DNA of 42,950 nucleotides, taken from a virus. Shown piece by piece: positions 9,959 to 35,888 of this stretch. How positions within the stretch are numbered: the first letter of the stretch is position 1; each line of letters starts with the position of its first letter. Where the stretch lies: the IMG/VR virus record IMGVR_UViG_3300044712_000268, positions 1 to 42,950 of that record; one strand, written 5' to 3'. The notes beneath the pieces are model-generated. The model did not search any database, had not been told where the DNA came from, and worked only from the letters and a program-made list of their open reading frames with translations. The position numbers and the translations under genes are program-made.

Positions 9959-10180
9959 TTAGTGTATTAGATATAAAGTTGTTGCGTCCTTTACGACAAG
10001 GGCGTTGTAAGCCGCCTCGGTCATAATCTTTACTTCGTCGATACTCGTACTCCCGACAAACAGCGAGGCGTCATACCTTTTTGTTGTCGAGTCCGTCGGC
10101 TTGTCCACCTCAACAAAGTACCCGTCAAGGCTCCCCGACTTGGTGTCGAGTTCGTAAATCCGGTATGATTCTTTTTGCAT
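9959..10180 (-). CDS. Small tail-associated protein (73 aa)
   Basis: The C-terminus MTEAAYNALVVKDATTLYLI matches the 'YxALxxKDxxTLYxI' motif found in many phage tail fibre and baseplate proteins, usually as a linking module. The start shares one base with the stop of the FISUMP gene, so the two are co-translated. It probably attaches or caps one of the neighbouring fibres; this is inference. Confidence 0.6.
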   Translation of the reverse strand: MQKESYRIYELDTKSGSLDGYFVEVDKPTDSTTKRYDASLFVGSTSIDEVKIMTEAAYNALVVKDATTLYLIH

Positions 10181-11784
10181 CAGTCGATAATGTTTGTTAC
10201 GGTAACGGTCTCGCTCCGGTGGGTTGAGGTCAGGGTGACCTCGCTTTCGACAATGGTGTCCAGAGTGTACCCTGTGGGCGGGGTCTCGGTTATCACATAG
10301 TCGTCAAACTTCAGCCGCCTAACGACAAGTGGAGTGCTTTGCGTCACCACGTCCGTTACCACATCGGGGTCTGCCCCCTGTCCGGTAATGGTCACTTCAA
10401 ACTCGGTGTCGTCAGCAATCTGCTCGTAACCGCTTTCTGACGAGTTTGAAGAGTCGTTGTCGTAATAGCACATTCCGGCGGTCGAAAGGGCAGCCCAAGC
10501 GGAGTTGTCGGTTATAAGGGGGATTTCATCGGATTGAGGTTCAACTCCTGCTATGGAACCATCATTTGAGTAGGCACAACGCGCTCCGGTTGAAAGCCCC
10601 GCCCAAGTGCTATTATCCGTCACGACCGAAATAGTAGACCCATCGGAATACTTGGTTTCCATAAGGTTCTCAGACAGCCAAACTTGGTCGCCTATTTTTA
10701 CGCTGGCGTAGGTTTTCCCGTCGTTTCCGGTGTAAGACGAAAGCGTGGAGTTTTCTTTTATGAGCCGGACGCTTACGCCAAAATAAGGATGGTTCGTACT
10801 TGCCCAAGCCAAATCGTCATTGAATGAACTTAACTGCGGGATAACCCAAGTGCCACCCGAATAGTAGGTTGTTGCTAAAGACAACGTGGCACGAATCGAC
10901 GTAAATGCGCCATCGGTTGCCCTTGTCCCGCTTCCCCTTCCGTTAAACCCGCTTGAATTGTCGGCTCCGGTGTTTGGGGAATCCCAATAAGTTGTCCCCG
11001 TTTCCTTCATTTTTCCACCCGCAACGCTATACCCACCTAAAGTGCTGGCTAATGTGAGGTAGTCATCCCACGAAGGAACTCTCCAACCGCTACCCGCGAG
11101 ACCCGATAAAGCGTAGTAATTATAGAGGTATCCCTGCGCCACACTTCCCTCAATCGCATTCCGAAAGTGTGTGCAGTAAAGGTTTTCGGCCATCCAGACC
11201 TGATCCCCGATCTTGACCGTTGGGTAGACGTTGCCGTCATTGTCGGTCATGGTTCCGGGGTCGGTGGAGTCGTCTTTTAGGAGGCGGATGCACTGCCCGT
11301 CAACCATTGTCGTTCCAACCGTATCCCCGAAATAAACCGACGACTCATCCGTTGAAAATGAAACCTGAAGCGCATTGCCGGGAACACTTGGCTCAATATC
11401 GGGTAACCATATTTGGGCATATTGCTTAAACCCCCAAAAAACACCATCCATGTCTCTTGCCCCGGCACCCCTCATACCAAATCCGGTTGAATTATCTGCC
11501 CCCTCATTTGGGGTATCCCAATGAACCAACCCGGCTTCTTTTAAATAGCCACCGGCTAACGGGTATCTACTATTTCCACTATCATAACTATCTATACTAT
11601 TTAATAATGTAGTCCATTCAGTTTTTGTCGGAACGTGCCACCCTGCCGGAGCGATTAGTCTGGAATCATTTACAGCATACCAGTTATACAAGGCCCCGTA
11701 AAGAGCATTGGTGACGTATTGGTTGACAATCTTTAAAATGGTGATTGTCCCGGTCTTTTTGGCGCAGGTGGATATTATTCTCAT
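10180..11784 (-). CDS. Tail protein with repeated FISUMP (C-type-lectin-like) domains
   Basis: The 534 residues contain FISUMP domains (Fibrobacter succinogenes major paralogous domain, related to the FGE-sulfatase/C-type-lectin fold). Domain 1, about 26-175, has LYGALYNWYAV and APAGWHVPTKTEW. Domain 2, about 180-345, opens with GNVYPTVKIGDQVWMAENL. A third, about 350-455, keeps the VKIGDQVWLSENL entry but lacks the LYNWYA half. The C-terminal ~75 residues look like a Cna-B/SpaA-type beta domain ending VTVTNIID. Lectin-like domains on a tail protein point to receptor binding. It lies between the tail-tip gene (4-base overlap) and the small linker gene. Confidence 0.8.
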   Translation of the reverse strand: MRIISTCAKKTGTITILKIVNQYVTNALYGALYNWYAVNDSRLIAPAGWHVPTKTEWTTLLNSIDSYDSGNSRYPLAGGYLKEAGLVHWDTPNEGADNSTGFGMRGAGARDMDGVFWGFKQYAQIWLPDIEPSVPGNALQVSFSTDESSVYFGDTVGTTMVDGQCIRLLKDDSTDPGTMTDNDGNVYPTVKIGDQVWMAENLYCTHFRNAIEGSVAQGYLYNYYALSGLAGSGWRVPSWDDYLTLASTLGGYSVAGGKMKETGTTYWDSPNTGADNSSGFNGRGSGTRATDGAFTSIRATLSLATTYYSGGTWVIPQLSSFNDDLAWASTNHPYFGVSVRLIKENSTLSSYTGNDGKTYASVKIGDQVWLSENLMETKYSDGSTISVVTDNSTWAGLSTGARCAYSNDGSIAGVEPQSDEIPLITDNSAWAALSTAGMCYYDNDSSNSSESGYEQIADDTEFEVTITGQGADPDVVTDVVTQSTPLVVRRLKFDDYVITETPPTGYTLDTIVESEVTLTSTHRSETVTVTNIID

Positions 11785-19139: not shown

Positions 19140-19440
19140 AGTCGGCCTTGAGGATTAAATATTTACTTCTGCCAATTCTTTCAATGTGCCGTATATTGAA
19201 ATACCCGCCGTCAAAGAGTATCCGCATGGTCTCGTCAACTTCCCGGTACCGAATCCAAAACTTGATGATTCGGCGGGCCACCAGTTGATCCGCTTCCATA
19301 GCTTCCCCTCCCTTCTCGAAGGAAACCTTAGCCCACACTTCAGATAGGGTACTCCACGAAGGAATCTCCTGTCCGTCGTCGGCCTTAGTCGTCGTCGGCT
19401 GTTCAATAACTATCCGTCTGTTCAAGTCGCCTAATTGCAT
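19120..19440 (-). CDS. Head-closure/adaptor protein, copy 1
   Basis: MQLGDLNRRIVIEQPTTTKA starts the same head-tail joining fold as the next gene. ATG 19440 is chosen over 19488 because it aligns with the paralogue's start and avoids most of the overlap with the upstream glycosyltransferase gene. Conserved parts include SWSTLSEVWAKVSF, EADQLVARRIIKFWIRY and EVDETMRILFDGGYF. It overlaps copy 2 by 20 bases. Either copy could have moved to a different place in the connector. Confidence 0.82.
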   Translation of the reverse strand: MQLGDLNRRIVIEQPTTTKADDGQEIPSWSTLSEVWAKVSFEKGGEAMEADQLVARRIIKFWIRYREVDETMRILFDGGYFNIRHIERIGRSKYLILKADYADRGF

Positions 19441-20218
19441 CCCGTTCCCCTTCGCTGATAAAGCCCATTTCAAAATCTTCCTTATCATAAGTTTCGATAG
19501 GCCATATATTGGTTTCAGACTTCAAATCGACCGCTAAAATCGAATCTGTTAATACTTTGGTTTGTCTGATTCCGTTCTTATGGAGTATCATCTCTGAACC
19601 ATGATCTAACCCCCGATTGAGGGAATCCGGCCAGAGTTTTTGCTCAGGAGAATGCTCCTGAATGATGTCGGCCACCCTGTGAAGTTTGCAGGCGTTGTTG
19701 CGGGTCATTGTCACCTCCCTTCGGGCGGTGCAAGTGAAGTCCGTTCCAACAGCCGAAACCTTGTAACGTATGGTAACCATATCTCCTAATCGCTCCACCA
19801 CGTCCCGGCGAATACACCGCGCAAGTCCAATCGGGTAAACATTATTGAAAATGCGTTTCTCTCCGGTTCTCACATCCAGGATCCCGCAACGGGTCAGCCC
19901 GAAGGCTTCATCTTCCCATTTATAGAGTCTTAGAAGTTCGTTGGCAATCAGGTCGTCCGATCCCATCGTCATCAGGTAATCCCAGGGTAATTTGAGTGCT
20001 TCGGTTAGCCCGGCGTTCCACTTTTTACCCAATGGCAGATTAGCGTGTTCCACCCCAATCACGTCGTACTTTTTCAGGAGAGGTTTAAAGTCTCCCGTAT
20101 AGACGGCTAATGGGGTGATGTCAAATTCGCCCCTAAGACGTTCCAGACCCATCATAAAGATTTCTGAAACCTCGGGGCGTTTATATAGCGCAGTAAGACA
20201 AAGAACTTTAGTAGACAC
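19403..20218 (-). CDS. GT-A glycosyltransferase inserted among connector genes
   Basis: The N-terminus STKVLCLTALYKRPEVSEIF is a Rossmann-like GT-A opening. NLPLGKKWNAGLTEALKLPW and D88-D89 in LMTMGSDDLI give the nucleotide-sugar/metal site of family-2-like transferases. At 271 residues it is a complete compact enzyme. It lies between the gp6-like connector (11-base overlap) and the head-closure gene (38-base overlap), a place normally held only by structural genes. Co-expression with the capsid suggests it sugars a virion component, which is inference. Confidence 0.8.
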   Translation of the reverse strand: MSTKVLCLTALYKRPEVSEIFMMGLERLRGEFDITPLAVYTGDFKPLLKKYDVIGVEHANLPLGKKWNAGLTEALKLPWDYLMTMGSDDLIANELLRLYKWEDEAFGLTRCGILDVRTGEKRIFNNVYPIGLARCIRRDVVERLGDMVTIRYKVSAVGTDFTCTARREVTMTRNNACKLHRVADIIQEHSPEQKLWPDSLNRGLDHGSEMILHKNGIRQTKVLTDSILAVDLKSETNIWPIETYDKEDFEMGFISEGERDAIRRLEQTDSY

Positions 20219-22006: not shown

Positions 22007-22777
22007 TTATTTCGATTTTAGCGTTATCATTCTTAGGTACTCTTCTCTTTCCCGCGCCTCGGCCTCGGCTTGGCGTTCCTGTTCTGCGAGGTCGGCTTTG
22101 GCCTGTTCGAGGGAAGTCATATCTCTTTTGGCGACTGTGGTATCAGGGTATGCCGGGAAGGTGACCGGGGAAACGTCATAGATTTTAGCGAACTTACTAA
22201 TGCGCCTTTCCATTGTTCCGTCCTCGGCCTCGCGCCATTCACTCCCCCCTTTATCGACAGAGAAGGAAAACGAACTCTGCGTCACGTCGCCCCTGCGAAG
22301 GGAGATTAACAGGTCGTTGGCGTAAGTCTGGCCGCCGTTGTCATAATCATAGGCGAAGCCCTTATCCGTTGCGGCAACGCGAAGGGTTTTACTCTTTGTT
22401 CTTCCCAGTATCTTATTCGGGTCGTGGTTGAACAGGGCGCGTATGTCGTTATTCTCCATCCCATCAAAAGCACCCGGCAGGATCATCTCTCTGAACCCGC
22501 CCAAATCTTCTGACCACGAATCATATACAGCCGCCATGCCATGCACGACTTCTTTCCCGTCCACCTCTTCGGTGCGGAACTCCATATCAATCAGTCTAAC
22601 TTCTTTTTCCATCTTTGCTACTTTAAAACTTTCCCATCTTATGCCTTTGTCCTTCAATAGCCGCTTGGCCTCCTCCATCGAATACATGGAGGCGTCAAAC
22701 AGTATTCTCGTCCCCTCCGCTCTTACCCCCGGTGCCGTTATCTCCACCGGTCGGGCTAACTTGCACAGGTGTTGCAT
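22007..22777 (-). CDS. Prohead maturation protease (U35 family)
   Basis: The core RLIDMEFRTEEVDGKEVVHG, GFREMILPGAFDG, the catalytic-histidine region ALFNHDPNKILGRT and the serine region GDVTQSSFSFSVDKGG match HK97-type prohead proteases. The C-terminal ~40 residues are a charged helix. ATG 22777 gives 256 residues with an N-terminal beta/helix module (RILFDASMYSMEEAKRLL) and an 83-base overlap with the portal gene; ATG 22687 would remove the overlap but break that module. It trims the capsid delta domain during head maturation. Confidence 0.9.
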   Translation of the reverse strand: MQHLCKLARPVEITAPGVRAEGTRILFDASMYSMEEAKRLLKDKGIRWESFKVAKMEKEVRLIDMEFRTEEVDGKEVVHGMAAVYDSWSEDLGGFREMILPGAFDGMENNDIRALFNHDPNKILGRTKSKTLRVAATDKGFAYDYDNGGQTYANDLLISLRRGDVTQSSFSFSVDKGGSEWREAEDGTMERRISKFAKIYDVSPVTFPAYPDTTVAKRDMTSLEQAKADLAEQERQAEAEAREREEYLRMITLKSK

Positions 22778-23954
22778 TTATCGCTTTGTCTAATGTTGTC
22801 ATGTTCACGGGGGCGAATAAATTGTCCCCTCCCTCCATCGGGTTGAGGTTCTCGAATGCCCTGATTTCGTTTGGTGTGATTGCCGAGATATTCCACATCT
22901 GTCGGTAGAACTCACCCCTTGAGGCCACGTCGCCCCGTAACAGACCGTCCACGTTTACCTCGACGAAGTAGTCCGCTTTCTCGGATTCGTAGAATAGTTT
23001 GCGGGTCAGCTCCTCCTCGATGCGCTTTATCCAGGGCATCAAAGAATACTGCACGAACTGGATGCTCTGCTGTTCGATGTTTGAATAAGTCGCTGCCGAT
23101 AGGTCGCCGATCATGTGAGGGGGGACGTTGAAGATTCTCGCCACGTCCGCGATCTGAAACTGTCGCGTTTCGAGGAACTGCGCCTGATCCGGCGGTATCG
23201 TAATTGGTTTCCAAACCATGCCCCCCTCGAGGATGACCGGCTTGTTTGTGTTTTCAACGCCCGTATTCCGGCTCATCCACATTTGCCGGAGCCGATCATA
23301 CTGGTTGTCGTCCAGTTTCCCGGCGACCTCTAAAACTCCCGAAGCACTCGACCCATTCTTGAAAAAGTAGGAGCCTTGCTTTTGTGCGGCGAGTCCGAGA
23401 CCGATATTCTCCCGTGCGATCTGGATAGGGGATTTCCCGACAATCCCATTCGTCGAGAATCCCAAAATATGAATCATGTTACGGGAGGGGACAAGGTTCG
23501 TCCGGTTGGCAACCTTATACCAAATCATGTTCTTGACAACGACCTCAACATCTGAAGGATGAATAATATCTAACGAGACAGGCCGTTCTAATGCGTCCTT
23601 CGTGATGATGGCATAAGCGTTCCCCCACAGGAGCACGCTGTTCATCATCGTTTGGAAAAATGTAAATTTTGACTGAAAGTCGTTAGGATTTTCGTGTACC
23701 AGAGAGTAAACGGGGTGCGCTCTGTCAATAGACTTGCCCGACTCGCCACGCTTGAAGACCTGGAAAGGAAGTTGTGCAACGCTGACCCCCAAGAGGTTCA
23801 CGGCTGACCATACCGCAGAGAGGGCCAACGAAGTTTCCTCGGTCACGGCCACACCGGACGAGGTCGTCGGCATAAACATATCTTCCAGCCATTTCGGGGG
23901 AGTTTCGAGGCTGCGCTCAGCGACAAAAAAAGGCCATTTCCTGACTATTCGCAC
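22695..23954 (-). CDS. Portal protein, HK97 family
   Basis: Typical HK97 portal features: SLETPPKWLEDMF, ALSAVWSAVNLLGVSVAQLP, FFQTMMNSVLLWGNAYAII, the ISPIQIARE-like GKSPIQIARENIG, and IADVARIFNVPPHMIGDL followed by AATYSNIEQQ. It forms the 12-fold DNA channel. The frame opens at GTG 23954, because an in-frame TAA lies in the hairpin just upstream. The 419 residues end in a Gly/Asp-rich tail. The region before it holds repeats and a hairpin that could control its translation. Confidence 0.93.
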   Translation of the reverse strand: MRIVRKWPFFVAERSLETPPKWLEDMFMPTTSSGVAVTEETSLALSAVWSAVNLLGVSVAQLPFQVFKRGESGKSIDRAHPVYSLVHENPNDFQSKFTFFQTMMNSVLLWGNAYAIITKDALERPVSLDIIHPSDVEVVVKNMIWYKVANRTNLVPSRNMIHILGFSTNGIVGKSPIQIARENIGLGLAAQKQGSYFFKNGSSASGVLEVAGKLDDNQYDRLRQMWMSRNTGVENTNKPVILEGGMVWKPITIPPDQAQFLETRQFQIADVARIFNVPPHMIGDLSAATYSNIEQQSIQFVQYSLMPWIKRIEEELTRKLFYESEKADYFVEVNVDGLLRGDVASRGEFYRQMWNISAITPNEIRAFENLNPMEGGDNLFAPVNMTTLDKAINATPVQVSPTGGDNGTGGKSGGDENTV

Positions 23955-24323: not shown

Positions 24324-25025
24324 TCATAAAAAAGTGTTATTGAGCAGGTTTGTCTGACGTTCATCGCCCCCGTTTGCAAATTCATCCCAAATCGTCCATT
24401 TCCCTTGCATCTTAGGGTGATACGTTACCCAACCCATTTTATGAGCCAGTACGATTCGCCTTTTGTGCTGTTGCTCGGCCAAACACCCCACTTCAATATC
24501 GGCCATCATGTCCTCTTTTAGATTCTCGGGGCAGAAGTACCGCAAGTCAAAGGCCATGCACCCCGTACCCAACAGGTCAACGTCGTGATTTCCGATGACT
24601 TCTCCCAACACCCGATAGGAGTGCCGTTCCTCTAAGGGGGTCTGTCTGGCGTAGTACGACCTAACGCCCCGCGTTATTAATTGCTTGCCGTGATAACTCA
24701 CAATCGCTTTATGGTTGTACTTAGCCAGCTCTTTTAGGGTGTGCTGAACATAATCGGGCGGGTATAACAGGTCGTCATCAAAGGCAAAGTAGGTGTGGTT
24801 CTCACCTTTGAGTTCAGAGCAAAAGTAAAATTTACCCCTGTCCGTTAAGTTTGGCCCCCGTACTTTTTTCACGTTCCCGTCCGTGATGGTTCTCGCGTTG
24901 CGGTAACTTTCCTCGTCATTGCAGTAAATCATTAACAGGTCGATTTGCGGGGCAATAGTCTTCACCACGTCCTTGACAATGTCGACCCTGTCCTTGAAGG
25001 TAGCAAGCGCGCCTATGGTCGCCAT
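24324..25025 (-). CDS. GT-A glycosyltransferase (233 aa)
   Basis: MATIGALATFKDRVDIVKDV opens a GT-A fold. YFAFDDDLLYPPDYV holds the metal/nucleotide-sugar acidic cluster D83-D85. LLGTGCMAFDLRYF and MADIEVGCLAEQQHKRR are typical acceptor-side motifs of family-2-like enzymes. It should move a sugar from a nucleotide donor to an unknown acceptor. Its start and the stop of the small upstream gene share a base, so it is translationally coupled to the cassette. Confidence 0.82.
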   Translation of the reverse strand: MATIGALATFKDRVDIVKDVVKTIAPQIDLLMIYCNDEESYRNARTITDGNVKKVRGPNLTDRGKFYFCSELKGENHTYFAFDDDLLYPPDYVQHTLKELAKYNHKAIVSYHGKQLITRGVRSYYARQTPLEERHSYRVLGEVIGNHDVDLLGTGCMAFDLRYFCPENLKEDMMADIEVGCLAEQQHKRRIVLAHKMGWVTYHPKMQGKWTIWDEFANGGDERQTNLLNNTFL

Positions 25026-25282
25026 TATCCTGCGTTAAAAGATGCTAAAATAACACCAATTTCCTGCGACGCGTCTGCCTCTCCGATATACTCCACTTTT
25101 AATTTGTCTATATCGGCAAACGGAACCCAAAGGTAATCCTCCCAGCCTTCATCGTTTGGTAACCCCCAACTCCGTTTCGGGTGGATTCTCCTTGCCTCAT
25201 CCTCATCATTTGTGACAACTACCATGCTATCAAAAGTATCATAGTCGTTGTTGATGTTTTGACTTACTTTGTAAATGTTCAT
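25025..25282 (-). CDS. Small hypothetical protein in the sugar cassette (85 aa)
   Basis: ATG 25282 overlaps the stop of the upstream glycosyltransferase (ATGA), so it is preferred to 25291. The protein has the form of a small alpha/beta regulatory or binding domain: MNIYKVSQNINNDYDTFDSM, then VVVTNDEDEARRIHP and YLWVPFADIDKLKVEYIGEA. Proteins of this look ('YxVxxxxxxxYDTYDSxVVxAxxExEAR...') occur as small phage proteins of unknown role. No enzymatic motif is seen. Confidence 0.6.
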   Translation of the reverse strand: MNIYKVSQNINNDYDTFDSMVVVTNDEDEARRIHPKRSWGLPNDEGWEDYLWVPFADIDKLKVEYIGEADASQEIGVILASFNAG

Positions 25283-25983
25283 GGTTTCCAATTTATTTCG
25301 TGCGTGCCGGTGAATAATTCTGTTTTCGCCCCCTTACAGGAGGGGTGTACCGAGTGTACCGCCTCGATTTGTTCCCTGTTTTCGGGAGTCCAGGGGAGCC
25401 AAACCTCGTTATACCACTTCATATAATCAAACTGTGTATAAAGCGTATTGTAATATTTCAGTTTCCTTTTGATGCTTTCCTCGTAAACATACGAATAGTG
25501 ATTTATTTTCTGCGTCAAGCAAAGCGTGTATTTTACTTGACCCTCCAACGTTGGGGGACGGTGAGATACAAACCTATCTCCCTTGTGGTATTTGAAGATT
25601 CTCGGACACCAAGCGTTGTACGCCCAACCATCCCCGCCTACTCCGATGTAGTTGTCCTTCCAAAAGTGGTTCATTTGAAACTTGACCACGTCCGGCTCGG
25701 ACTCCAATAGGCTTTCGATGTAATAGAAGTCCGCCGTACTGATAAACTCGTCCACGTCGAAGATCATGATGTAACCGGACTCCACCCCGTCAAGCGCGGC
25801 GTTCACTTGGTCGATCTTCTCGTTAAAGACCTCCACGCCCCAGGGGTTGCCGTTTACCCTTGCCCAACTCGTCGTAACCCCGTATTGTACCACTACGTCG
25901 TCGGATAATCGGGAATAATGCTCGTAAAACTGTTTGAGCAGGGGGTGATCCATTTCACCGCAGATGGCGACCGTTGTTATCAT
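25279..25983 (-). CDS. GT2-like glycosyltransferase (234 aa)
   Basis: MITTVAICGEMDHPLLKQFY with GYIMIFDVDEFIS (D76-x-D78) shows a GT-A fold with a DxD motif, close to the 'Glyco_tranf_2_4' type. Later aromatic-rich segments (MNHFWKDNYIGVGGDGWAYN and a C-terminal HEINWKP) likely shape the acceptor site. ATG 25983 overlaps the FkbM gene stop by 4 bases and is preferred to the start at 26043. It is part of the five-enzyme cassette. Confidence 0.82.
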   Translation of the reverse strand: MITTVAICGEMDHPLLKQFYEHYSRLSDDVVVQYGVTTSWARVNGNPWGVEVFNEKIDQVNAALDGVESGYIMIFDVDEFISTADFYYIESLLESEPDVVKFQMNHFWKDNYIGVGGDGWAYNAWCPRIFKYHKGDRFVSHRPPTLEGQVKYTLCLTQKINHYSYVYEESIKRKLKYYNTLYTQFDYMKWYNEVWLPWTPENREQIEAVHSVHPSCKGAKTELFTGTHEINWKP

Positions 25984-26540
25984 AAGAACAGATAATCGTT
26001 TCCAAACTGGTAAACCTCCGTGTAAACATTCCCCATCAGCCACTCGGCATACTCACTTGGGTCTCCGTTGGGGTGAAATTCCACCATCAGAATCTCGGGG
26101 TACTCATCGCGTGACAGTTCGTCTATCACGGCGTACTCTTCCCCCTCAATATCCAATTTCAATATGTCGATTTTCTCGACCTTCAATAGCCTCTTTATGT
26201 CATCCAGACAATAACATTGCGCGTTAAAATAGTCAGCCGTACCCTGTAAATTGACCATCGAACAGGAAACATACTCGGGGTTCTCGGGAAGATAAAACCT
26301 CCTAATCTCGGTTGTGTCGGCCAGCCCCCACGCCCGAAACTCCACCGGAGCGGAAAGGGTCGCTATATAGGTACTTGCTTTCGGGGTCGGGTCAAAACAA
26401 TACACCCTTACGCCGTGTTTTACGGCCTCCAGTTCAAAACTGATGTCCTCGCCAACCCCGAAGGAAAACAGCACCATTCCTTCTTTAAAGCGGTCTGTGG
26501 GGAAGAAACGCCCCCCGGTTTCTGTGCCTAAATATTCCAT
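25980..26540 (-). CDS. FkbM-family SAM methyltransferase (186 aa)
   Basis: The SAM-binding motif I VLFSFGVGEDISFELEAV is followed by the acidic strand end VRVYCFDPTP and the FkbM signature IDILKLDIEGEEYAVIDEL, then PEILMVEFHP. Such enzymes O-methylate sugars in polyketides, glycopeptidolipids and surface glycans. ATG 26540 overlaps the fusion gene's stop by 13 bases; a longer upstream frame is a shadow of the neighbouring gene. Methyl capping of a glycan built by the adjacent transferases is the natural reading, but the substrate is unknown. Confidence 0.85.
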   Translation of the reverse strand: MEYLGTETGGRFFPTDRFKEGMVLFSFGVGEDISFELEAVKHGVRVYCFDPTPKASTYIATLSAPVEFRAWGLADTTEIRRFYLPENPEYVSCSMVNLQGTADYFNAQCYCLDDIKRLLKVEKIDILKLDIEGEEYAVIDELSRDEYPEILMVEFHPNGDPSEYAEWLMGNVYTEVYQFGNDYLFL

Positions 26541-28576
26541 TGCTCTAAAATTTGGTCGATTTCTTCTCTCGGTCTCGCGTTGAACGCCTGGGAGTCGGGA
26601 TGACCTCCAAACCAATGCAAAGCGAAACTGTCCGCAGTCGGGGGTTGTTTGCCCTCGTAGTAGTCTTTCATCAGGTAGCTTTCCTCGATGGGATAGAAAT
26701 ACCGCATCGGGGTTTTGAATGTTTTGTAGTATTTCAGTAAGGACAGACCTTCCCCCGATGATACAAAAGATGACCATAGCCAATTCCCCGCCTCGCAGTA
26801 GGAAGTTACCCCTTCGGACAACTTTTGCTTTGTCCGCTCGTACATTTCCTTCGCCAATGGGCATCTTTTGAACATTCCCACCACTCCCGAGTAGTTGATT
26901 CTTTCCCCGCCCCAAACAATGTCGTAGTCGGTCAACTCATCGAAAGGCTTTAGGAATAGTTGGTCAAGGTCAAAATAGAATCCTCCATACTCGTACAGGG
27001 CTTTCCACCGGATTAAGTCGGAAGCGTAGTTGGGTAATATCCCGTCGACAAACTCGTTCACCAATTCCTGCGGGGTTATGTCCGGCAAGTATTCTATTCC
27101 CGTGCGGTCAAATTCCAGTTTCTCTTTTCCTACCCACGTTTGCTTATTCCCGCAACCTCTTACGTGGTGGAACATAACCTTCCAGTTGGGATGGTGCTCC
27201 TTAAAGGTAACGTAGGTCATATACCGCAGGTAGGACATGGGGGTGTTTGCACTCCAAATGAAGTGGGCAATCTTCGGGATTTTCACCGGGAAGCCGATCT
27301 TCTCCCTTTGATTATAGACCTCCTCATCCCGCTTGATGAATGTATAATTATGCAGTAGGAGTTTATCATACTCGGCCAACCCGAAGTCTGCGTGTTCGTG
27401 CCGGATAATCACATCGGGATAGTATTTTATTCGTTTGAACCGCTTGGCGAGGTTCTGGAACTCCACGTCGCACCTTTGGGAAACATAGTCCTCGTGGTAC
27501 ACAAATCCCCACCGATCAAACCACTTCCGGCCCATGATTTGGATGGTGTTAATTTTATCCGTCTGGAATCCGTCGTTGAACCATAACGCCCCGTCCGTAT
27601 CGGGGTACATTTCGCCCATTCTCTTACGGATGATATTATCCAACCCCGAAACTTTCGGTATCATGTCGTCGCTCACAATCACGACAATATCCCAATCCTC
27701 CTCTGCGATACCGTAGTTGACCGCCTCAATCTTGGATTTACATTCCGATATTGTACACTTCAAATTGCGGTAGCCCTTTAGCCTATCAAAAAACTCCTGA
27801 TTGTTTAGTTCTTTGTCGTCGGAGTCAATCGTTATCAGGAACAGGAAGTTTTCGCTTCGTAGGCTCTTGTAATACAGGTCTAAGGTGTTAAAGAACTTCT
27901 CCCTGCGGTATCTTATCGGATATTTGAATAGAATCTTATACTCTCTTGCCGGAGCATCGGTACCCGCCAGTTTCTTGACGAGCGAAGTCCAGTATTCCCA
28001 ACCCTTATCCCGAATCACGTCCCACTCCCAGGTCATGTGCAAAGTGACCACTTCATGCCTTTTACCGAAGTCCATTCCCTCCAACCTCCCGTAATAGTCA
28101 CTTTTGATAACCGGAATACGGGAGTTGACTATGTTCTCGCACAGGATTCTTTTGAACCCCGCCTCCCTTAATAATCGGGCCAACCGAATATCTAAAGTGT
28201 TACAACAGGGGATAAAGGTATCTACCTCTCTCTTAAAGGCCGTTTCGAGCAGTTTCTTTCCCGCGCGTAGTTTGTCCAGTATCTTCCTTTCGGGAAGCCC
28301 CACGAACTCGTCAAACGTCCCCAAAGTCTTTGAGTTGTAAATATCCCCGCACCCTGTAAGGATGGCACTCTTTTCCGTGTAGCCGTGTTCGTACCCGTGC
28401 ATACAGGGGATGGCGTTTACCGGACGCTTAAACTTCTCGTAGGTCGCCGGAACTATCCCCAAGTGAACCTCAACCCCGTTGTCGGCAAAAATCTCCAGCA
28501 TCCTATCGAAGTCGTCTAACTGCCCCGGCTGAACGGGGCGAATCCCCGAAGGGTAGTCGTCAATCCTTACTATCAT
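26528..28576 (-). CDS. Three-domain fusion: NodB-like deacetylase, GT-A transferase and GT32 DXD transferase
   Basis: The 682 residues join three domains. Residues 1-180 look like a NodB/DUF2334 polysaccharide deacetylase: D6-D7 (VRIDDYPSG), H60-x-x-x-H64 (CMHGYEHG) and a TLHMTWEWD end. Residues 215-430 are a GT-A fold with D303-D304 (VIVSDDMIP). Residues 431-682 are a GT32/Gly_transf_sug domain with ASDLIRWKALYEYGGFYFDL and its D536-x-D538. The protein could de-acetylate and extend a glycan in one pass. It starts 4 bases before the end of the upstream small gene. I know no standard enzyme with exactly this order. Confidence 0.82.
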   Translation of the reverse strand: MIVRIDDYPSGIRPVQPGQLDDFDRMLEIFADNGVEVHLGIVPATYEKFKRPVNAIPCMHGYEHGYTEKSAILTGCGDIYNSKTLGTFDEFVGLPERKILDKLRAGKKLLETAFKREVDTFIPCCNTLDIRLARLLREAGFKRILCENIVNSRIPVIKSDYYGRLEGMDFGKRHEVVTLHMTWEWDVIRDKGWEYWTSLVKKLAGTDAPAREYKILFKYPIRYRREKFFNTLDLYYKSLRSENFLFLITIDSDDKELNNQEFFDRLKGYRNLKCTISECKSKIEAVNYGIAEEDWDIVVIVSDDMIPKVSGLDNIIRKRMGEMYPDTDGALWFNDGFQTDKINTIQIMGRKWFDRWGFVYHEDYVSQRCDVEFQNLAKRFKRIKYYPDVIIRHEHADFGLAEYDKLLLHNYTFIKRDEEVYNQREKIGFPVKIPKIAHFIWSANTPMSYLRYMTYVTFKEHHPNWKVMFHHVRGCGNKQTWVGKEKLEFDRTGIEYLPDITPQELVNEFVDGILPNYASDLIRWKALYEYGGFYFDLDQLFLKPFDELTDYDIVWGGERINYSGVVGMFKRCPLAKEMYERTKQKLSEGVTSYCEAGNWLWSSFVSSGEGLSLLKYYKTFKTPMRYFYPIEESYLMKDYYEGKQPPTADSFALHWFGGHPDSQAFNARPREEIDQILEQWNI

Positions 28577-28875
28577 TTCGCCTCCTTGCAGTTATTGACG
28601 TTTTTCCTCCAGTTCTGGACGCTCACCCTGAACGAGTCGTAAGTCTTATATTTCCGCCGTCCAAAATAGAACAGATAGCTTTCCTCCAACGCCTCGTAAG
28701 CCTCTTCGTGCGTTTTGTAGTAGGAAATCAGGTTGCACCACTTGTCGTAGAAACCTTCGATAGTCTGAAGATTCAGAATGTGTTTCTCGTATTTGTTTTC
28801 CTCCCTTATGTGGGTCGCCTCGTCCTCCGGTTGGATAGACTCGGGCTTTGTGAAAATCTTAAAGGGCTTCCTCAT
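28573..28875 (-). CDS. Hypothetical protein in the sugar cassette (100 aa)
   Basis: A charged helical protein with many aromatic residues (EGFYDKWCNLISYYKTHEEA, then YLFYFGRRKYKTYDSFRVSV). It overlaps both neighbours by 4 bases, so it is translated with the dehydrogenase and the fusion enzyme. No family is recognised. The basic C-terminal half might bind nucleic acid or a polyanion; that is speculation. Confidence 0.6.
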   Translation of the reverse strand: MRKPFKIFTKPESIQPEDEATHIREENKYEKHILNLQTIEGFYDKWCNLISYYKTHEEAYEALEESYLFYFGRRKYKTYDSFRVSVQNWRKNVNNCKEAK

Positions 28876-29603
28876 ATACTGTATTTAAAGATTTGTTCCA
28901 GCGCTGGAAAGGGTTTCAGTTCGTTTATCAGCTTCGCGTTTGGCGTGACGCAATGGCCCCCAATCGGCATACTCAAATGTTCAAAGTAGGGGCGGGTAAC
29001 ATTCGCCATGCCCAACTTCTGGTAACCGGCATTGTAGGACTTCAGGTAGTCGACCCAATCGGAGTAACTCACGTCGACCTCCTTGAACCACTCTTCGGCC
29101 TCGGCGTTCAGGGCAAGGCACAACCCGTAGTAGGTTGTATCAAACACCTTGAACAGTTCCGTTGTGATTGACGGGGAAACCGCCTCGAAGTTGATAATCC
29201 CAATGTCCAAAAAGTGTTTTACAACATCTTTCACGTCCTGACCGCTCTCGTAGCCAATCCACTTCTTAAAGGTCAATATCCCGTCGGCCAAGTTAGGGTG
29301 TACGCCAATCACCGGGGAGTGAACAACCGTTACCTTGTAGTCCAGTAATTGGAGAATGTGCAGAGTAACACCGGGGGAAACGGTCGAATGAATGATAACC
29401 GTTTTCGCACCCGATGAATGAATCTCGTCAATCACCGCCCCGACAAAGAAGTCATTGTACGGGATGCAGACGTTTAAGATTTCGCACTCCTGTTTCCCCT
29501 GCGAGATGCGTAAGTCCTTCCACGCCACCTCGAAGCCGGAACGCTGGTACACCTCGTAAAGGGATTTTCCAATCTCGCCAAAACCTAAAATCTTTACTTT
29601 CAT
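28872..29603 (-). CDS. Shortened UDP-glucose/GDP-mannose dehydrogenase-like protein
   Basis: A Rossmann NAD-binding motif GFGEIG (residues 7-12) starts the protein. The family's STVSPGVT motif (near residue 74) and a late MPIGGHCVTPNAKLINEL follow; the latter aligns with the catalytic-cysteine region 'GGxCxPKD' of nucleotide-sugar 6-dehydrogenases. At 243 residues it lacks the C-terminal UDP-binding domain of the usual ~400-residue enzyme. It may have a different substrate or a reduced activity. Its place directly upstream of glycosyltransferases suggests it makes or tailors a sugar-acid building block. Confidence 0.65.
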   Translation of the reverse strand: MKVKILGFGEIGKSLYEVYQRSGFEVAWKDLRISQGKQECEILNVCIPYNDFFVGAVIDEIHSSGAKTVIIHSTVSPGVTLHILQLLDYKVTVVHSPVIGVHPNLADGILTFKKWIGYESGQDVKDVVKHFLDIGIINFEAVSPSITTELFKVFDTTYYGLCLALNAEAEEWFKEVDVSYSDWVDYLKSYNAGYQKLGMANVTRPYFEHLSMPIGGHCVTPNAKLINELKPFPALEQIFKYSI

Positions 29604-29612
29604 ATTGTTTGT

Positions 29613-30506
29613 TTAAAATATGTTTGGCATTAACTCTTTTATCCTTACCGTTGTTAGGTATGATAGTGTTTTGAAGTTTATGGTGGGGTTTTTAAACTGC
29701 TTAACAAAGTTCCACGCCTCCTCTTTTACGAGCGAGTAGTAAATGGTTCCAAGCAGCCGGGGGATATGACGAGACGACCATCCGTCCTCACCTTCAATTT
29801 TCGCCCTCTCTTTTTCCACAAGAGAAAGCGTTACAAATTGGTCGACAATTTCCTGCTCGATGAGTTTCTTTTCCTTTAATTCTGTCACATCGAGGCGGGC
29901 GTGTTCGGACTTAAATTCGTTTTTAACTATCTTTGCCCACGTTACCCTGCCAAACTTGTTTTTGTAAGAGTAATTTTTAATCACAATCCCCTCTCCGGTT
30001 CCCTTACCGTCCTCGATTAAAAAAGTATTTTTATCAAGTTGCGCTACCAAACGCTCATAAGTGGGGTTTTCTATTTTGCATATTGGGATTATATAGTCAA
30101 TCTTGAATCGGTCTAATATGTATTGATAATCCTCATACTCCATATAATCCCCATCAACGCAAACATCAAAAACATAAAATCTCCTCCAGGCATCGGGCTG
30201 ATAGGTTTTGAGCGTATGCGGGACAAGCCATTCTCCGAATACCCTTAAATTTGGATATTCCAAAAACATAGCGTAGAGATTGGGATTATTCACGACCCAG
30301 GCCATAAACCCCTGATTGTCGGAATCAAGTGTTAACTCCCGATTCCTTGAACCCGCCCGAAGTGTTCCGTCCCACCATAACTGCGAATTGGTACCATCAA
30401 TTTTAGGGAACACATAGCACATCCCGTGTGTTATACCCTCGGTCTCTGTTGTGCCGAATCTTTCAACGTGCTGATACTTGATAAATCCACCTTCTTCTGT
30501 TGTCAT
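29613..30506 (-). CDS. ATP-dependent RNA ligase (Rnl2-like)
   Basis: Nucleotidyltransferase motifs are complete. Motif I is K35-x-D-G38 (FPKIDGTN, the lysine that takes AMP). GSRNREL (52-58) follows, then motif III-type RVFGEWL (88-94) and FYVFDV (110-115), motif IV GEGIVIKN (171-178) and motif V WAKIVKNEF (190-198). The family seals nicks in RNA, often to repair tRNA cut by host defences. It overlaps the large terminase stop by 4 bases, an odd place for such an enzyme. No polynucleotide kinase partner is visible in the window. Confidence 0.85.
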   Translation of the reverse strand: MTTEEGGFIKYQHVERFGTTETEGITHGMCYVFPKIDGTNSQLWWDGTLRAGSRNRELTLDSDNQGFMAWVVNNPNLYAMFLEYPNLRVFGEWLVPHTLKTYQPDAWRRFYVFDVCVDGDYMEYEDYQYILDRFKIDYIIPICKIENPTYERLVAQLDKNTFLIEDGKGTGEGIVIKNYSYKNKFGRVTWAKIVKNEFKSEHARLDVTELKEKKLIEQEIVDQFVTLSLVEKERAKIEGEDGWSSRHIPRLLGTIYYSLVKEEAWNFVKQFKNPTINFKTLSYLTTVRIKELMPNIF

Positions 30507-32122
30507 AATATTCTGATGTTATATTCGATGTTCTCTTCTTTCGGTATACTCATGGCGAGTGCCATGATAGCGGCCACCACCCCGTCAATCTTCGCCCCGC
30601 TCTTGTCTTTATTGGGTTTGATATTGCCCGCCGCGTCCATGTCCATGACGACGTTGCTCAGCATCCACCTCATAACGGGATTCCCGTCGTGGTAGATTCT
30701 CCGTTGCGCGCACATCATTTCAAACTCCTTAGAGGGTGAACTCATAGAGGCGAACCCCTGACCGAACTGTTCAATAGGCACACCCTCGGCCAACAGGTCG
30801 ATAATCATTTGGGAGGCATTCCACCGGTCACAGGCAATCTTTCTCGGTTTGTGGGCGTCCATCTGTTCGTGAACGTCCCGCTTGATATAGTTGTAGTCCG
30901 TTGCGTTGCCGGGGGTTTGGGTCATGTAGCCCTTCCGCACCCAATCGCTATAATCATGCTCCTCTTTTTTCTTGACGGTTTCTTCGGGAATATAGAAACG
31001 CGGGTCGACGTAATACCCGTCTCTATACGGGAAAAACTGGACGTAGGCGGTTATGTCTCTTACCGAAGCCAAGTCAATTCCCGCCCCGGTCGAACTCACC
31101 CCGTTGAAGTTGGGTTTTTCCACGACGGTACTCATCCAAACGTCGTCGGGAATCCAGGTATCCGCACTATCCGTCCATTGGTTTAAATTCTTGGTGCGGA
31201 AATCAATCTCTTTGGTGCCACCTTCGTTTTTGGCTTTCAGGTATCTATTCTGTAAAAAGTCCAGCTTCACGCTCACCCCGAGATTAGGGTTTGCCTTGAG
31301 CCAGGTGCTTGAGTCGTTCCAGTCGTCCCTCTCGTCCAATTCATACAGGATAGCCAGTAAACTCTCGTCGGTTTTGATGCCCTTCAGTATGTCGATGCTC
31401 GTTTTACGCAGGGCCGAATAGCACGGATAGTCCTTGTGGAACCCCGCCGTCGTGATGACGTCAATCATCGGCTGACGCCTCGCTCCCATGCCACTTTCCA
31501 GCACATTGAGCATTTCGTCGGTTTTGTGGGCATGATATTCGTCAATTACGCCCCACGATGGGTCGAAACCGTCCTGAGTGTTGGAATCGGAACCCAAAGG
31601 TTTAATAAAACTGTCCTGAAAGATGACCGACTTGGTCATGACCTTCATCATGCTGCGAAGTTCCGGCGTCCCCTCAATGATTTTCTGCACGTCCTTGAAA
31701 CCAATGCGCGCCTGGTCTTCTTTGGTGGCGGCGATATACCCCTGTGCGCCAGACTCTTTGTCCGCCAATAGGTGGTAAATAACCTTCCCGGCCGCCATTG
31801 TAGTTTTTGCGTTTTTTCGTCCTACCTCCATAAACGAAGTTCTGAACCGGCGCAGGTTGGTATCTTGGTTGACCCAACCGAACACCTGACCGACATAGAA
31901 ACATTGATGGGGTTCGAGCGTAATCCGACTCCCCGCCCATTCGCCCTTCCAGTGCCTTAACACCTCAAAGAAGTTAATGGCCTTCTGCGCGGCATCCTCG
32001 TCAAACCGAAAATCCCCCCGGTCGCGGTCGGCAATAAAACGCTTGACCGCCAACTGGATTAATTCACCGGCAACCTGCTTACCGGACGAAACGTCATCAA
32101 TATATTTCCAAAACCTAACCAT
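30503..32122 (-). CDS. terL: Terminase large subunit
   Basis: A 539-residue HK97-type (Terminase_1) packaging motor. Walker A-like VGRKNAKTTMAA is at 100-111. The Walker B DE pair is at 193-194 (WGVIDEYHAHK). The RNase-H-like nuclease has D349 (GAGIDLASVRD), D431 (IACDRWNAS) and a late acidic residue in SGAKIDGVVAAIMAL. It cuts concatemeric DNA and drives it through the portal. It overlaps the small subunit gene by 8 bases. The portal is unusually far away (6.5 kb), with the sugar cassette and RNA ligase between. Confidence 0.96.
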   Translation of the reverse strand: MVRFWKYIDDVSSGKQVAGELIQLAVKRFIADRDRGDFRFDEDAAQKAINFFEVLRHWKGEWAGSRITLEPHQCFYVGQVFGWVNQDTNLRRFRTSFMEVGRKNAKTTMAAGKVIYHLLADKESGAQGYIAATKEDQARIGFKDVQKIIEGTPELRSMMKVMTKSVIFQDSFIKPLGSDSNTQDGFDPSWGVIDEYHAHKTDEMLNVLESGMGARRQPMIDVITTAGFHKDYPCYSALRKTSIDILKGIKTDESLLAILYELDERDDWNDSSTWLKANPNLGVSVKLDFLQNRYLKAKNEGGTKEIDFRTKNLNQWTDSADTWIPDDVWMSTVVEKPNFNGVSSTGAGIDLASVRDITAYVQFFPYRDGYYVDPRFYIPEETVKKKEEHDYSDWVRKGYMTQTPGNATDYNYIKRDVHEQMDAHKPRKIACDRWNASQMIIDLLAEGVPIEQFGQGFASMSSPSKEFEMMCAQRRIYHDGNPVMRWMLSNVVMDMDAAGNIKPNKDKSGAKIDGVVAAIMALAMSIPKEENIEYNIRIL

Positions 32123-32570
32123 TCAGTATTTTGGTTAGATCGTTTTCCTCGTCCTGTTTCTTAACGGTGACCTTCGTGCGGGAGACCGGCGACAGGCCGA
32201 ACCTATCCTCAATCTTCAGCATCTCGGATTCACAGTTACTCAGTAGCCCGACGCACGGCCTGACTTGCTCATACCCGCTCTGCGTCCTCTGGAACGGGCC
32301 GTTGTCGTCAATATCCTTGTGCATAGCCAGGGCCGTATCGTACAACTTGCAATATCTCCCAAATGTCACCAAATCGAGAAAAGTCATCAGGCCGTTATAG
32401 ATTAATTGGTTCCCGTAGGTGTACCACAGCCCCTTCGCCTCTTTGGATAAATTCAATTTCGGATCCGGTGCGGGCATCTTGTCTAATGCCTCGATTTTTA
32501 CCCCGGTATCCCGGTCGGCCCGGTAGGTCCCCTCCTGTTTTTTCTGCTCGACACTCTTTTTTTTACTCAT
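32115..32570 (-). CDS. terS: Terminase small subunit, P27 family
   Basis: MSKKKSVEQKKQEGTYRADR opens the protein, and the conserved core is PKLNLSKEAKGLWYTYGNQL, TFGRYCKLYDTALAM and LSNCESEMLKIEDRFGLSPV. ATG 32570 overlaps the stop of the radical SAM gene (ATGA) and is preferred to an upstream ATG at 32630. At 151 residues it is the DNA-recognition subunit of the packaging machine. P27-type small subunits are usually linked with cos-end packaging. Confidence 0.9.
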   Translation of the reverse strand: MSKKKSVEQKKQEGTYRADRDTGVKIEALDKMPAPDPKLNLSKEAKGLWYTYGNQLIYNGLMTFLDLVTFGRYCKLYDTALAMHKDIDDNGPFQRTQSGYEQVRPCVGLLSNCESEMLKIEDRFGLSPVSRTKVTVKKQDEENDLTKILNG

Positions 32571-33913
32571 AGTCCCTCCCTTCGGCAACTGACAGCGCAG
32601 GTTTCCTGCTGGGGCATCGATGTACGGCAACTCGCTCCTTGTGATACAGACCCCCTATCCCGTTGCGATATAAATTGATTTCGTAAAAAGTTGGAGCAGT
32701 CCTCATCTCTTAGATAGTAGGATACTCCGTTTGTAAATGAATTGAGAAGCGTATCAGTTGAAACATAATCCCTCTTCAATGCCATAAGAACATCATAGGA
32801 TGGTTGCTTCCTTCCGAGTCTTCCCCTGCTATTAGTATAGTCGAATGATTCTCCCTTATGGAACCCGTGTCTAATCAGGGCGGCTGACCACTCCTGCAAG
32901 AATGATTCTTTAGCCTCGAAGTCAACGGGCGGTGCGCCCTCATAGGGTGTGCCGACACATGGCTCAAAGTTCGTGATACTAAAGTCGACACGAATGTTTC
33001 TGTTATTTGTTACAAAGGAATCCCCGAATAGTGTTGTATTAGTTGTGCTGTTCTTACTTATAATGCTCTTGATTGTACTTAGCGCATCAAACCATATACT
33101 ATATGTGGACTCTCCCGGCAACCCATAGATGAGACACAAGTGGAAGTAACTCACATGATGCGACAGTCTCTCAATTATGTTGTACAACATATCATCAGTA
33201 ACCCGCTTACCCGATGCCATGCGTACATTCTCATCGAATGATTCTACTCCTAATTTAACCGATGCCCTCAGGGTGGTGTTTAGATAGGGTTCTATCTTAT
33301 CTGCATCCATTAGACAACAATCCGTATTCATTACGGTAATATGGTTGCGCTGGCAATACTCCATCAATTCAGTAATATCAGAATATCCCCCCATGTTTGC
33401 GGATAACAGGTTAACCGTACTGTTGGGTTTTAATTGAGACCTGACCATCCCAATGGGTTTTTCTCTGTACTTCCCGCCGTGAACCCAAGAGTATTCACAA
33501 AACTTACATTTGTACTTGCAGCCCCTCGTTAACTCCACAACCCGATTGCGCCCGCTTATTACCTCGCCCGATGTTATTGATGTAGCGTTTTCGTCATAGT
33601 CAAATTCGCCCCTAAAAACGTCCACAATTTCGTCCAAGCAAACAACTCCCTGACCCCCGGCGAGTAATCTGTGAGAAGTCCGTTTACTTTTGATTGGCTC
33701 AATTCTGTTTCTCTTCAGGAATGAAAGCGCATTGAAAATATGGGTGGGGTAGAATATGTTAAACCATATTTCGTCAAACTTGCTGAAGTCGGCCTTTTCG
33801 TACCAATTAAATCGCGTCGCCCCGGATTTTGCTAATACGATCTCCAGCCCCAAATTTATTGAGCCTTTATTCCTGGAATCTCTCGGCAAAGTGTCTATCA
33901 GGGCAATCTTCAT
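32567..33913 (-). CDS. Radical SAM enzyme overlapping the small terminase gene
   Basis: The iron-sulfur motif C132-x3-C136-x2-C139 (GCKYKCKFCEY) is intact. LGVESFDENVRMASGKR (221-237) and HLCLIYGLPGES (258-269) are further radical SAM landmarks. The N-terminal ~125 residues look like a cobalamin-binding-type Rossmann domain but lack the DxHxxG motif. Several extra cysteines lie near the C-terminus (429, 439, 443). The gene is richer in A/T than the terminases, suggesting acquisition. The substrate is unknown; overlap with terS suggests expression with packaging and perhaps modification of DNA, RNA or a virion protein. Confidence 0.85.
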   Translation of the reverse strand: MKIALIDTLPRDSRNKGSINLGLEIVLAKSGATRFNWYEKADFSKFDEIWFNIFYPTHIFNALSFLKRNRIEPIKSKRTSHRLLAGGQGVVCLDEIVDVFRGEFDYDENATSITSGEVISGRNRVVELTRGCKYKCKFCEYSWVHGGKYREKPIGMVRSQLKPNSTVNLLSANMGGYSDITELMEYCQRNHITVMNTDCCLMDADKIEPYLNTTLRASVKLGVESFDENVRMASGKRVTDDMLYNIIERLSHHVSYFHLCLIYGLPGESTYSIWFDALSTIKSIISKNSTTNTTLFGDSFVTNNRNIRVDFSITNFEPCVGTPYEGAPPVDFEAKESFLQEWSAALIRHGFHKGESFDYTNSRGRLGRKQPSYDVLMALKRDYVSTDTLLNSFTNGVSYYLRDEDCSNFLRNQFISQRDRGSVSQGASCRTSMPQQETCAVSCRREGL

Positions 33914-34726: not shown

Positions 34727-34908
34727 TTTTTTGTTGGCTCTTCAGCGTAAGTCTCCACCTTCAAACTGCCGGTATTGAACTCGGCATACAGATTCGCCCT
34801 CTCTAAACTTCCGGCGGGGCGTGGCACGATAGTCTCGTCTGCTATCGGGATTAACTTTACCTGACCGTTTTGCAGGTCGATAATGCGGAACTTGACCTTG
34901 ATTCTCAT
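34723..34908 (-). CDS. Hypothetical protein (61 aa)
   Basis: A small beta-rich protein (MRIKVKFRIIDLQNGQVKLI, then SLKVETYAEEPTKK). It overlaps the phosphoesterase stop and the next small gene by 4 bases each, so it is translationally coupled in a run of five genes. No family is recognised. Confidence 0.55.
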   Translation of the reverse strand: MRIKVKFRIIDLQNGQVKLIPIADETIVPRPAGSLERANLYAEFNTGSLKVETYAEEPTKK

Positions 34909-35888
34909 AATACCTTCCCGTTAATGATTTTCGCATTGAATACCCTGAATGTTCCGTCCTCGTTTATCTTGACGTGGCCGAAACCATGAGACCATTCGTT
35001 GAACTTCCGAAACTCGGGGTACAGTCCAGATAAGCAACCGAGCGACCAACAGCCCTCGACTTTCCCGTCCATTCTTTTCCAAGTATGCTCGCTTGAGGTG
35101 TGAAAATGGCCTCCGATGTAGTTTACTTTCCCTTTGAGCATGAATGTTCGTGCGGGGTTTACCGTGTTGCTTTTCACCCCGAAGTCGTCGCCGTGACCAA
35201 TCCACAATTCCCCGGCCTTTATGATTTGTCTGTTCTTGAGGTAAGTCACCCCAAAATCAGAGAACTTCAGAAAGAAGTCCAGGTCGAGTTCATCCCCGCT
35301 TGCGCCTAATAGTTCCGGTGCCTTGATGCGGAGATAGTTTTCCAACCGTCTTTCGTGATTCCCCGGCAGAAAGTAAATCTTCGCCTTTGGAAGAGTTGAT
35401 GAGATGTAATAGAGCATCTCATACCCGGCGTCCAATTCATCCCGCAGTTCCCTCATTCTTGGGTCTCGGGTGAAACTCGACAACTGGTAAAAGTCCATGA
35501 AGTCGCCCGTCAGAATAATCGTGTTGATGCCTTTTGTTTTACCCCATTCAACGGCGGCTTTCACGGCTTCGGGTTCATGGTACGGAACGTGAATATCAGA
35601 GAGCAAAAGACAATTATTCGCCGTTGTGGGCAGAATGAAGTCTTCCCGTTCCTCTTTGTAGGTCTGAGGCTGGCAGATATTCAGAAATCTTCGGTCAGTC
35701 AATAACTCTAAGTTTCTTGAGCCGGAGTTCCCGGTGTAGTGCCGGATTCTGCTTCTCACACTATCTACGCTGGCAAACACCTCGGGGTTTTCCTTGTAAA
35801 TCAGCCTCGCAAGCGTCAGCTTCATAAGATTCGGATACTTTTCAAGGTATTCGCAAATGATTTCTCCACTAATCCCTTTTTCACCCAT
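34905..35888 (-). CDS. Calcineurin-like metallophosphoesterase with N-terminal helical domain
   Basis: All five metal-binding blocks are present: D98-x-H100 (LLSDIHVPYH), G128-D129 (ILTGDFMD), G176-N-H178 (LPGNHERR), H232 (IGHGDDF) and H261-x-H263 (IGGHFHTS). Residues about 10-55 form a helical, HTH-like domain ending SVRSRIRHYTG. The enzyme could hydrolyse phosphodiesters in nucleic acids or signalling nucleotides; phage members are known but substrates vary. It belongs to the accessory run between replication and packaging. Confidence 0.85.
   Translation of the reverse strand: MGEKGISGEIICEYLEKYPNLMKLTLARLIYKENPEVFASVDSVRSRIRHYTGNSGSRNLELLTDRRFLNICQPQTYKEEREDFILPTTANNCLLLSDIHVPYHEPEAVKAAVEWGKTKGINTIILTGDFMDFYQLSSFTRDPRMRELRDELDAGYEMLYYISSTLPKAKIYFLPGNHERRLENYLRIKAPELLGASGDELDLDFFLKFSDFGVTYLKNRQIIKAGELWIGHGDDFGVKSNTVNPARTFMLKGKVNYIGGHFHTSSEHTWKRMDGKVEGCWSLGCLSGLYPEFRKFNEWSHGFGHVKINEDGTFRVFNAKIINGKVL

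Follow-up and report, generated by a model that had tools for sequence, protein, structure and literature searches.

The virus record IMGVR_UViG_3300044712_000268 of IMG/VR, a stretch of 42,950 bases that was analysed as a whole and is here called the window, carries a cassette of sugar genes among the genes of its head operon. This cassette, along with one more transferase named GT271, probably forms a virion-glycosylation locus, as judged from sequence. A broader reading is quite possible, though it is put forward tentatively. It holds that an uncultivated lineage of tailed phages, probably infecting Bacteroidota, keeps serotype-like and swappable glycan cassettes in the head operon, following the plan of flagellin islands and giving different virion glycans. 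As part of the same tentative reading, the dehydrogenase-like and first-transferase genes of these cassettes would be fixed, with an exchangeable middle.

In the proposed mechanism, soluble transferases would attach a sugar, late in infection and in the cytosol, to an assembling structural protein such as the capsid, tail tube or fibre. The GT2 and GT32 enzymes would lengthen the attached sugar, after which the deacetylase would trim the glycan and the FkbM methyltransferase cap it; a nucleotide sugar would be oxidised by the dehydrogenase-like protein. The exchange of the middle genes would alter the outer glycan and thus produce different surface ‘serotypes’ within one lineage. Such a locus would work in the manner of bacterial flagellin glycosylation islands and of glycosylated mycobacteriophage virions.

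Sugar genes within the head operon

The head-and-tail operon of the window lies on the minus strand. An integrase is present at one end, and the phage may therefore be temperate. The host is probably a member of the Bacteroidota, because a FISUMP-domain protein is encoded at 10180-11784 (PF09603, 4.4e-46), the nearest TerL match among named genomes is a Fibrisoma prophage, and two of the cassette proteins, GTb and FkbM, have homologues in the Bacteroidota phylum. The large terminase gene terL (30503-32122, minus strand; PF20441 4.6e-46, PF03354 5e-34, phrog_9 8e-161) and the portal gene (22695-23954, minus strand; phrog_12 3e-129) bracket about 6.5 kb with eight genes, all of them on the minus strand. 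From terL to portal, these encode an RNA ligase, a nucleotide-sugar dehydrogenase-like (NDH-like) protein, the small protein sm100, a three-part fusion, an FkbM methyltransferase, GTb, an 85-residue protein and GTc. The original prediction of a sugar gene set lying here, coupled and sharing one direction, is borne out by profiles, junctions and strand. The coordinates given with it are correct. It had overlooked the RNA ligase inside the block, as well as the fact that most of the cassette is exchanged between sister phages. A calcineurin-like metallophosphoesterase (34905-35888, minus strand; phrog_221) is encoded upstream of the head operon. A radical SAM enzyme (32567-33913, minus strand; PF04055 7.7e-9), which has no PHROG match, lies immediately upstream of the gene for the small terminase, an unusual location for such an enzyme.

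The RNA ligase (29613-30506; PF09414 1e-16, phrog_548 2.6e-43) is not a sugar enzyme, and no homologue of it was found in the loci of the relatives examined. It is followed by the NDH-like protein, a mini version of a nucleotide-sugar dehydrogenase with 243 residues (28872-29603; phrog_9148, UDP-glucose dehydrogenase, 2.2e-6; PDB UGDH 7kws 2e-4). The Rossmann motif GxGEIG, K152 and C218 (PIGGHC) are present in it, and all three motifs are found in the sister phage L048 as well; we take the Lys and the Cys to be the equivalents of the UGDH catalytic residues. Of the features of a UDP-glucose/ManNAc 6-dehydrogenase, the Rossmann NAD domain, the Lys and the Cys (GGHC) are thus in place, but the C-terminal UDP-binding domain is missing, as the protein ends about 25 residues past the Cys motif in the window and L048 alike. 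Hence, the ‘acidic’ glycan that had been proposed is a weak claim, with the Cys and Lys motifs in its favour and the missing domain against it. An AlphaFold2 model of this protein, built from two sequences, had a pLDDT of 41 and was discarded.

The next gene encodes sm100 (28573-28875), a small conserved protein of 100 residues that is a marker of the terL-portal gap. The fusion (26528-28576) then joins a CE4/DUF2334-like deacetylase (about 28576-28127; DUF2334 6e-5, below the Pfam cut-off), a middle GT-A transferase (about 27841-27341; phrog_14945 1.3e-12) and a GT32 transferase (about 27283-26597; Gly_transf_sug/GT32, PF04488 4.5e-9). The best cellular match of the deacetylase part is a DUF2334/Polysacc_deac_1 protein, and its motif residues are apparently intact by eye. 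The Pfam cut-offs are passed by the GT32 part and by the FkbM methyltransferase, a protein of 186 residues (25980-26540, with its start at ATG 26540; PF05050 1.4e-8) whose cellular homologues reach up to 41% identity. It is this FkbM domain on which the ‘methylated’ character of the predicted glycan rests.

GTb (25279-25983), which has a DxDEF motif, is assigned as a GT2-type glycosyltransferase through its homology to the GT2 parts of Bacteroidota-phylum proteins (best E 1.3e-20). A direct Pfam or PHROG match was not found for GTb; some of its cellular homologues match Glycos_transf_2. PDB searches with the fusion or with GTb, each as a single sequence, gave no match. After the gene of the 85-residue protein (25025-25282; phrog_5444 2e-17) comes GTc (24324-25025), a putative GT-A transferase with a DDD motif. 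No Pfam or PHROG family matches it, and its sole phage homologue (30%) is found in the cassette of the phage L003. Two GT-A transferases had been predicted here, of which GTb stands by its GT2 homology; GTc, which is called from the DDD motif and the L003 homologue, is the least certain assignment in the cassette. A search of 163 genomes of the Bacteroidota phylum for cellular homologues of GTc and the NDH-like protein found none; as no control matched in it, this shows little.

As read from the sequence, 4-base overlaps occur at the terL/ligase, NDH-like/sm100, sm100/fusion, FkbM/GTb and GTb/85-residue junctions. The fusion and FkbM genes overlap by 13 bases and those of the 85-residue protein and GTc by 1 base, while the ligase and NDH-like genes are separated by 9 bases; the 4-base overlaps described earlier are thus present at most junctions. 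By gene order and junctions, the cassette is coupled to the structural genes and co-directional with them. A sequence search recognised no Bacteroidota-type promoter inside the head operon or the cassette block. This absence and the position of the genes suggest that the cassette would be expressed late.

GT271 lies outside the gap (19403-20218, minus strand), between the genes of the head-tail adaptor Ad1 and the head-closure protein Hc1. The transferase that had been predicted at this place is confirmed by its AF2 model (pLDDT 84) as having a GT-A fold, the Foldseek matches being SpsA (1qg8, E 2.6e-7) and other GT-A structures. The GT271 family occupies two locations, both among head genes. 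In L048 the location is identical to that in the window, while in L002, L003, L004 and L045 the gene is inside the terL-portal gap and not between Ad1 and Hc1. GT271 and its L048 orthologue also have a common insertion of about 40 residues, which is missing from the family members in the gap. GT271 and the cassette transferases did not arise by recent duplication, as hhalign detected no relation between them. When GT271 or the 279-residue protein family of L048 was searched as a profile against the PDB, chance matches alone were returned.

Exchange of sugar genes between sister phages

L048 and L239 together represent a sister phage that is collinear with the window. Amino acid identity between the two phages is about 42-69% in the stretch that begins with terS and runs to the end of the neck and major tail protein genes; for much of the tape-measure gene and the tail genes next to it, the value drops to 31-38%. 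L048 retains the genes of sm100, the NDH-like protein and GT271 but lacks the fusion, FkbM, GTb and GTc. Their place is taken by a set that encodes a 279-residue sugar-locus protein, a methyltransferase, a GT4 and a GT2. This set is common to L041 and in part to L042, at 50-70%. Between the window and L048, amino acid identity is 58-59% for the NDH-like protein, 53% for GT271, 54% for the MCP and 59% for terL. The NDH-like and GT271 genes also show the pattern of capsid and terminase, in which codon positions 1 and 2 are conserved and fourfold sites are near saturation. Such conservation at the amino acid level, with fourfold sites near saturation, indicates purifying selection; and because the substitution pattern equals that of capsid and terminase, both genes are in use and not decaying. 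On this comparison, the arrangement is that of a serotype locus, with the NDH-like gene and GT271 fixed and the remainder exchanged as a set.

The gap itself was studied in 192 loci with both terL and portal, which came from scanning viral contigs for the two proteins. TerL, portal or sm100, and not sugar genes, served to find the loci of the relatives, which are mostly contig fragments. The gap is below 600 bp in 152 of the 192 and above 1 kb in about 27. The earlier claim that this place is free of genes in most HK97-type phages is nearly right, but 61 of the 152 short gaps hold sm100. Altogether, sm100 is present in 78 of the 192 relatives, invariably within the terL-portal gap and never elsewhere in those loci. 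Therefore, terL-sm100-portal is a common simple state. The sm100 gene probably has an accessory role in packaging or in the head.

In the TerL tree, the window forms a clade with L048, L042, L004, L002, L003 and L045 (SH-aLRT 94 in a short search, below the starred level). All seven members, a small sample of uncultivated phages, carry sugar genes in the terL-portal gap. The clade was not chosen for these genes, as it was collected via TerL and a non-sugar marker. The gap of the nearest outgroup pair, L038 and L049, is without sugar genes, and the sugar-gene label needs 3 changes on the tree against 8.6 in shuffles. L038, the Fibrisoma prophage, was at one point counted as a cassette carrier by its gap length; it was removed, as its gap holds antirepressors. 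Thus, the search of relatives that the original prediction called for finds sugar genes throughout the clade, but with a sister phage that swaps most of the cassette.

The terL-portal slot is a general insertion site, because wider relatives hold other cargo in it, including transposases, reverse transcriptase, antirepressors and other genes. What is distinctive of the window's clade is the use of the slot for sugar genes. Homologues of the cassette were not found among 50,697 phage records by megablast and tblastn, and scans of viral contigs with the fusion and the NDH-like protein gave nothing beyond L048. L041, which has a partial TerL and was assigned to the clade by its portal, carries a large set with a methyltransferase, a GT4, a GT-D-like protein, a GT2 and others. 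Outside the clade, a methyltransferase and GT2 set is found in the gap of L111 (2249-4594, plus strand) and a single GT-like gene in that of L015; both look like gains separate from that of the window's clade. The cassette of L003 (2735-4471, plus strand) includes a separate deacetylase-like protein and a 149-residue protein that, by eye, resembles an ADP-ribosyltransferase; its GNAT-like protein is present in L002 as well.

Virion protein, host envelope or DNA as the possible acceptor

A membrane segment, taken as a 19-residue hydrophobic stretch at 1.6 or above, was not found in the cassette proteins of the window or in GT271, where the maximum 19-residue KD value is at most 1.4. In the relatives, too, the cassette proteins show no clear membrane segment; the one borderline case is a stretch of the GNAT-like protein from L003. 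This argues against a lipid-linked or Gtr-type modification of the envelope and for a cytosolic acceptor. The Gtr-type families (membrane glucosyltransferase, GtrA flippase and GtrB) are also absent from the Pfam scans of the window and its relatives. Soluble cytosolic enzymes and phage-encoded glycosyltransferases, two of the features by which a virion glycosylation locus would be recognised, are found.

It is unlikely that the enzymes modify the host envelope, altering LPS or capsule in lysogeny or late infection so as to block superinfection or the adsorption of progeny to debris. Conversion by prophage glycosyltransferases is nonetheless a known strategy (PMC12619734). The integrase, with the temperate habit it may imply, is consistent with such a role, as is the presence of cellular homologues of some relatives' enzymes in exopolysaccharide loci. 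Phage-borne sugar transferases are common to the window and to prophage O-antigen conversion of the GtrABC type. The Gtr systems, however, are membrane proteins encoded near the attachment site, whereas the window cassette proteins have no transmembrane segment and are encoded within the head operon with no recognisable promoter of their own. Further, in the window and L048 alike, GT271 is flanked by two genes of the head-tail connector.

The decoration of phage DNA bases against restriction, by the transferases, the methyltransferase and the other enzymes, is considered very unlikely. Phage glycosyltransferases that act on hydroxymethylated bases do exist (Pyle 2024, as cited in PMC12619734), soluble cytosolic enzymes would fit, the cassette adjoins the terminase, and the methyltransferase of one relative matches phage families annotated as DNA methyltransferase. 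This reading is weakened by the absence of a thymidylate-synthase-type base hydroxymethylase (PF00303) from the window record, which may be incomplete; the controls in this search matched. The search for a TET/JBP oxidase (PF12851) was empty too, but counts for little, as no control genome matched either. Moreover, the enzymes resemble those of protein or polysaccharide glycans (GT32, FkbM and CE4, with GT-D in relatives). Less probable again is the proposal that the gap is a hotspot for any moron genes and that its sugar genes have no joint function. The RNA ligase in the window's own gap and the mixed cargo of the wider relatives speak for it; the sugar genes in every member of the clade, the purifying selection on the NDH-like protein and GT271 over the window-L048 divergence, and the tight translational coupling of the cassette genes speak against it. 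Virion glycosylation, as originally proposed, is thus the best-supported reading, given the clade-wide slot, the capsid-like rate of the NDH-like protein and GT271, the lack of membrane enzymes and of a hydroxymethylase, and the homologues in flagellin islands.

Likeness to known glycosylation systems

To our knowledge, the glycosylation of virions has been described for few phages, mainly mycobacteriophages. These glycosylate their capsid and tail tube with their own transferases (Freeman 2023, as reported in PMC12363180, PMC11256854 and PMC12619734). Che8 gp110 and Corndog gp38 are likewise phage-encoded glycosyltransferases, and the targets proposed for them are capsid and tail proteins (PMC12363180 and PMC11256854). 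Unlike these, the transferases of the window have no homologue in the 50,697 phage records and lie inside the head operon; their set adds a deacetylase, an FkbM methyltransferase and a dehydrogenase-like protein, and is swapped between sister phages. In the autonomous capsid glycosylation of the chlorovirus PBCV-1, the glycan of the major capsid protein is reportedly assembled by virus-encoded multidomain transferase proteins; this, however, is a eukaryotic virus with unrelated genes. In both comparisons, the glycan of the window phage is a predicted one.

If the proposal is true, phages diversify their surface in the way that bacteria do with O-antigen and flagellin glycans, and the clade is a concrete set of phages in which glycosylated particles may be sought. 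The glycan might shield the particle from antibodies or lectins, help to retain it in mucus or biofilm, or mimic a receptor.

Flagellin glycosylation is a cytosolic protein glycosylation carried out by soluble enzymes. The islands responsible likewise hold variable genes for glycosyltransferases, methyltransferases and sugar tailoring, next to a gene whose cytosolic protein product self-assembles, and FkbM enzymes and fusions of glycosyltransferase with methyltransferase are common in them (PMC4875605). In the window, the flanking assembly genes are those of terminase, portal and capsid, and not of flagellin. The best cellular homologue of GTb and one of the top three of FkbM are found on flagellin-bearing loci of two genomes. 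That of GTb (E 1.3e-20, the next being 4.7e-6) is part of a glycosyltransferase/methyltransferase protein of 2840 residues, which stands 9.5 kb from two flagellin genes. That of FkbM (38%), which ranks third by E-value, belongs to a protein of 2454 residues in another genome; flagellin genes lie on the same contig at a distance of about 26 kb, with TPR and transferase-like genes in between. Homology does not settle the acceptor, because the homologues of the L048-type genes and some of those of FkbM are in exopolysaccharide or O-antigen-like clusters. A Ser/Thr-rich acceptor tail was looked for on the MCP, and no obvious one was seen. From the homologues and the operon position taken together, a structural protein is the most likely acceptor.

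The 2840-residue protein, encoded in a genome of the Bacteroidota phylum (L240, 4632-13154, minus strand), contains a methyltransferase, a GT2 and additional parts that are glycosyltransferase-like and TPR-like. Similar giants are found in L252, where the protein has 2454 residues, and in L251, where it has 3745.
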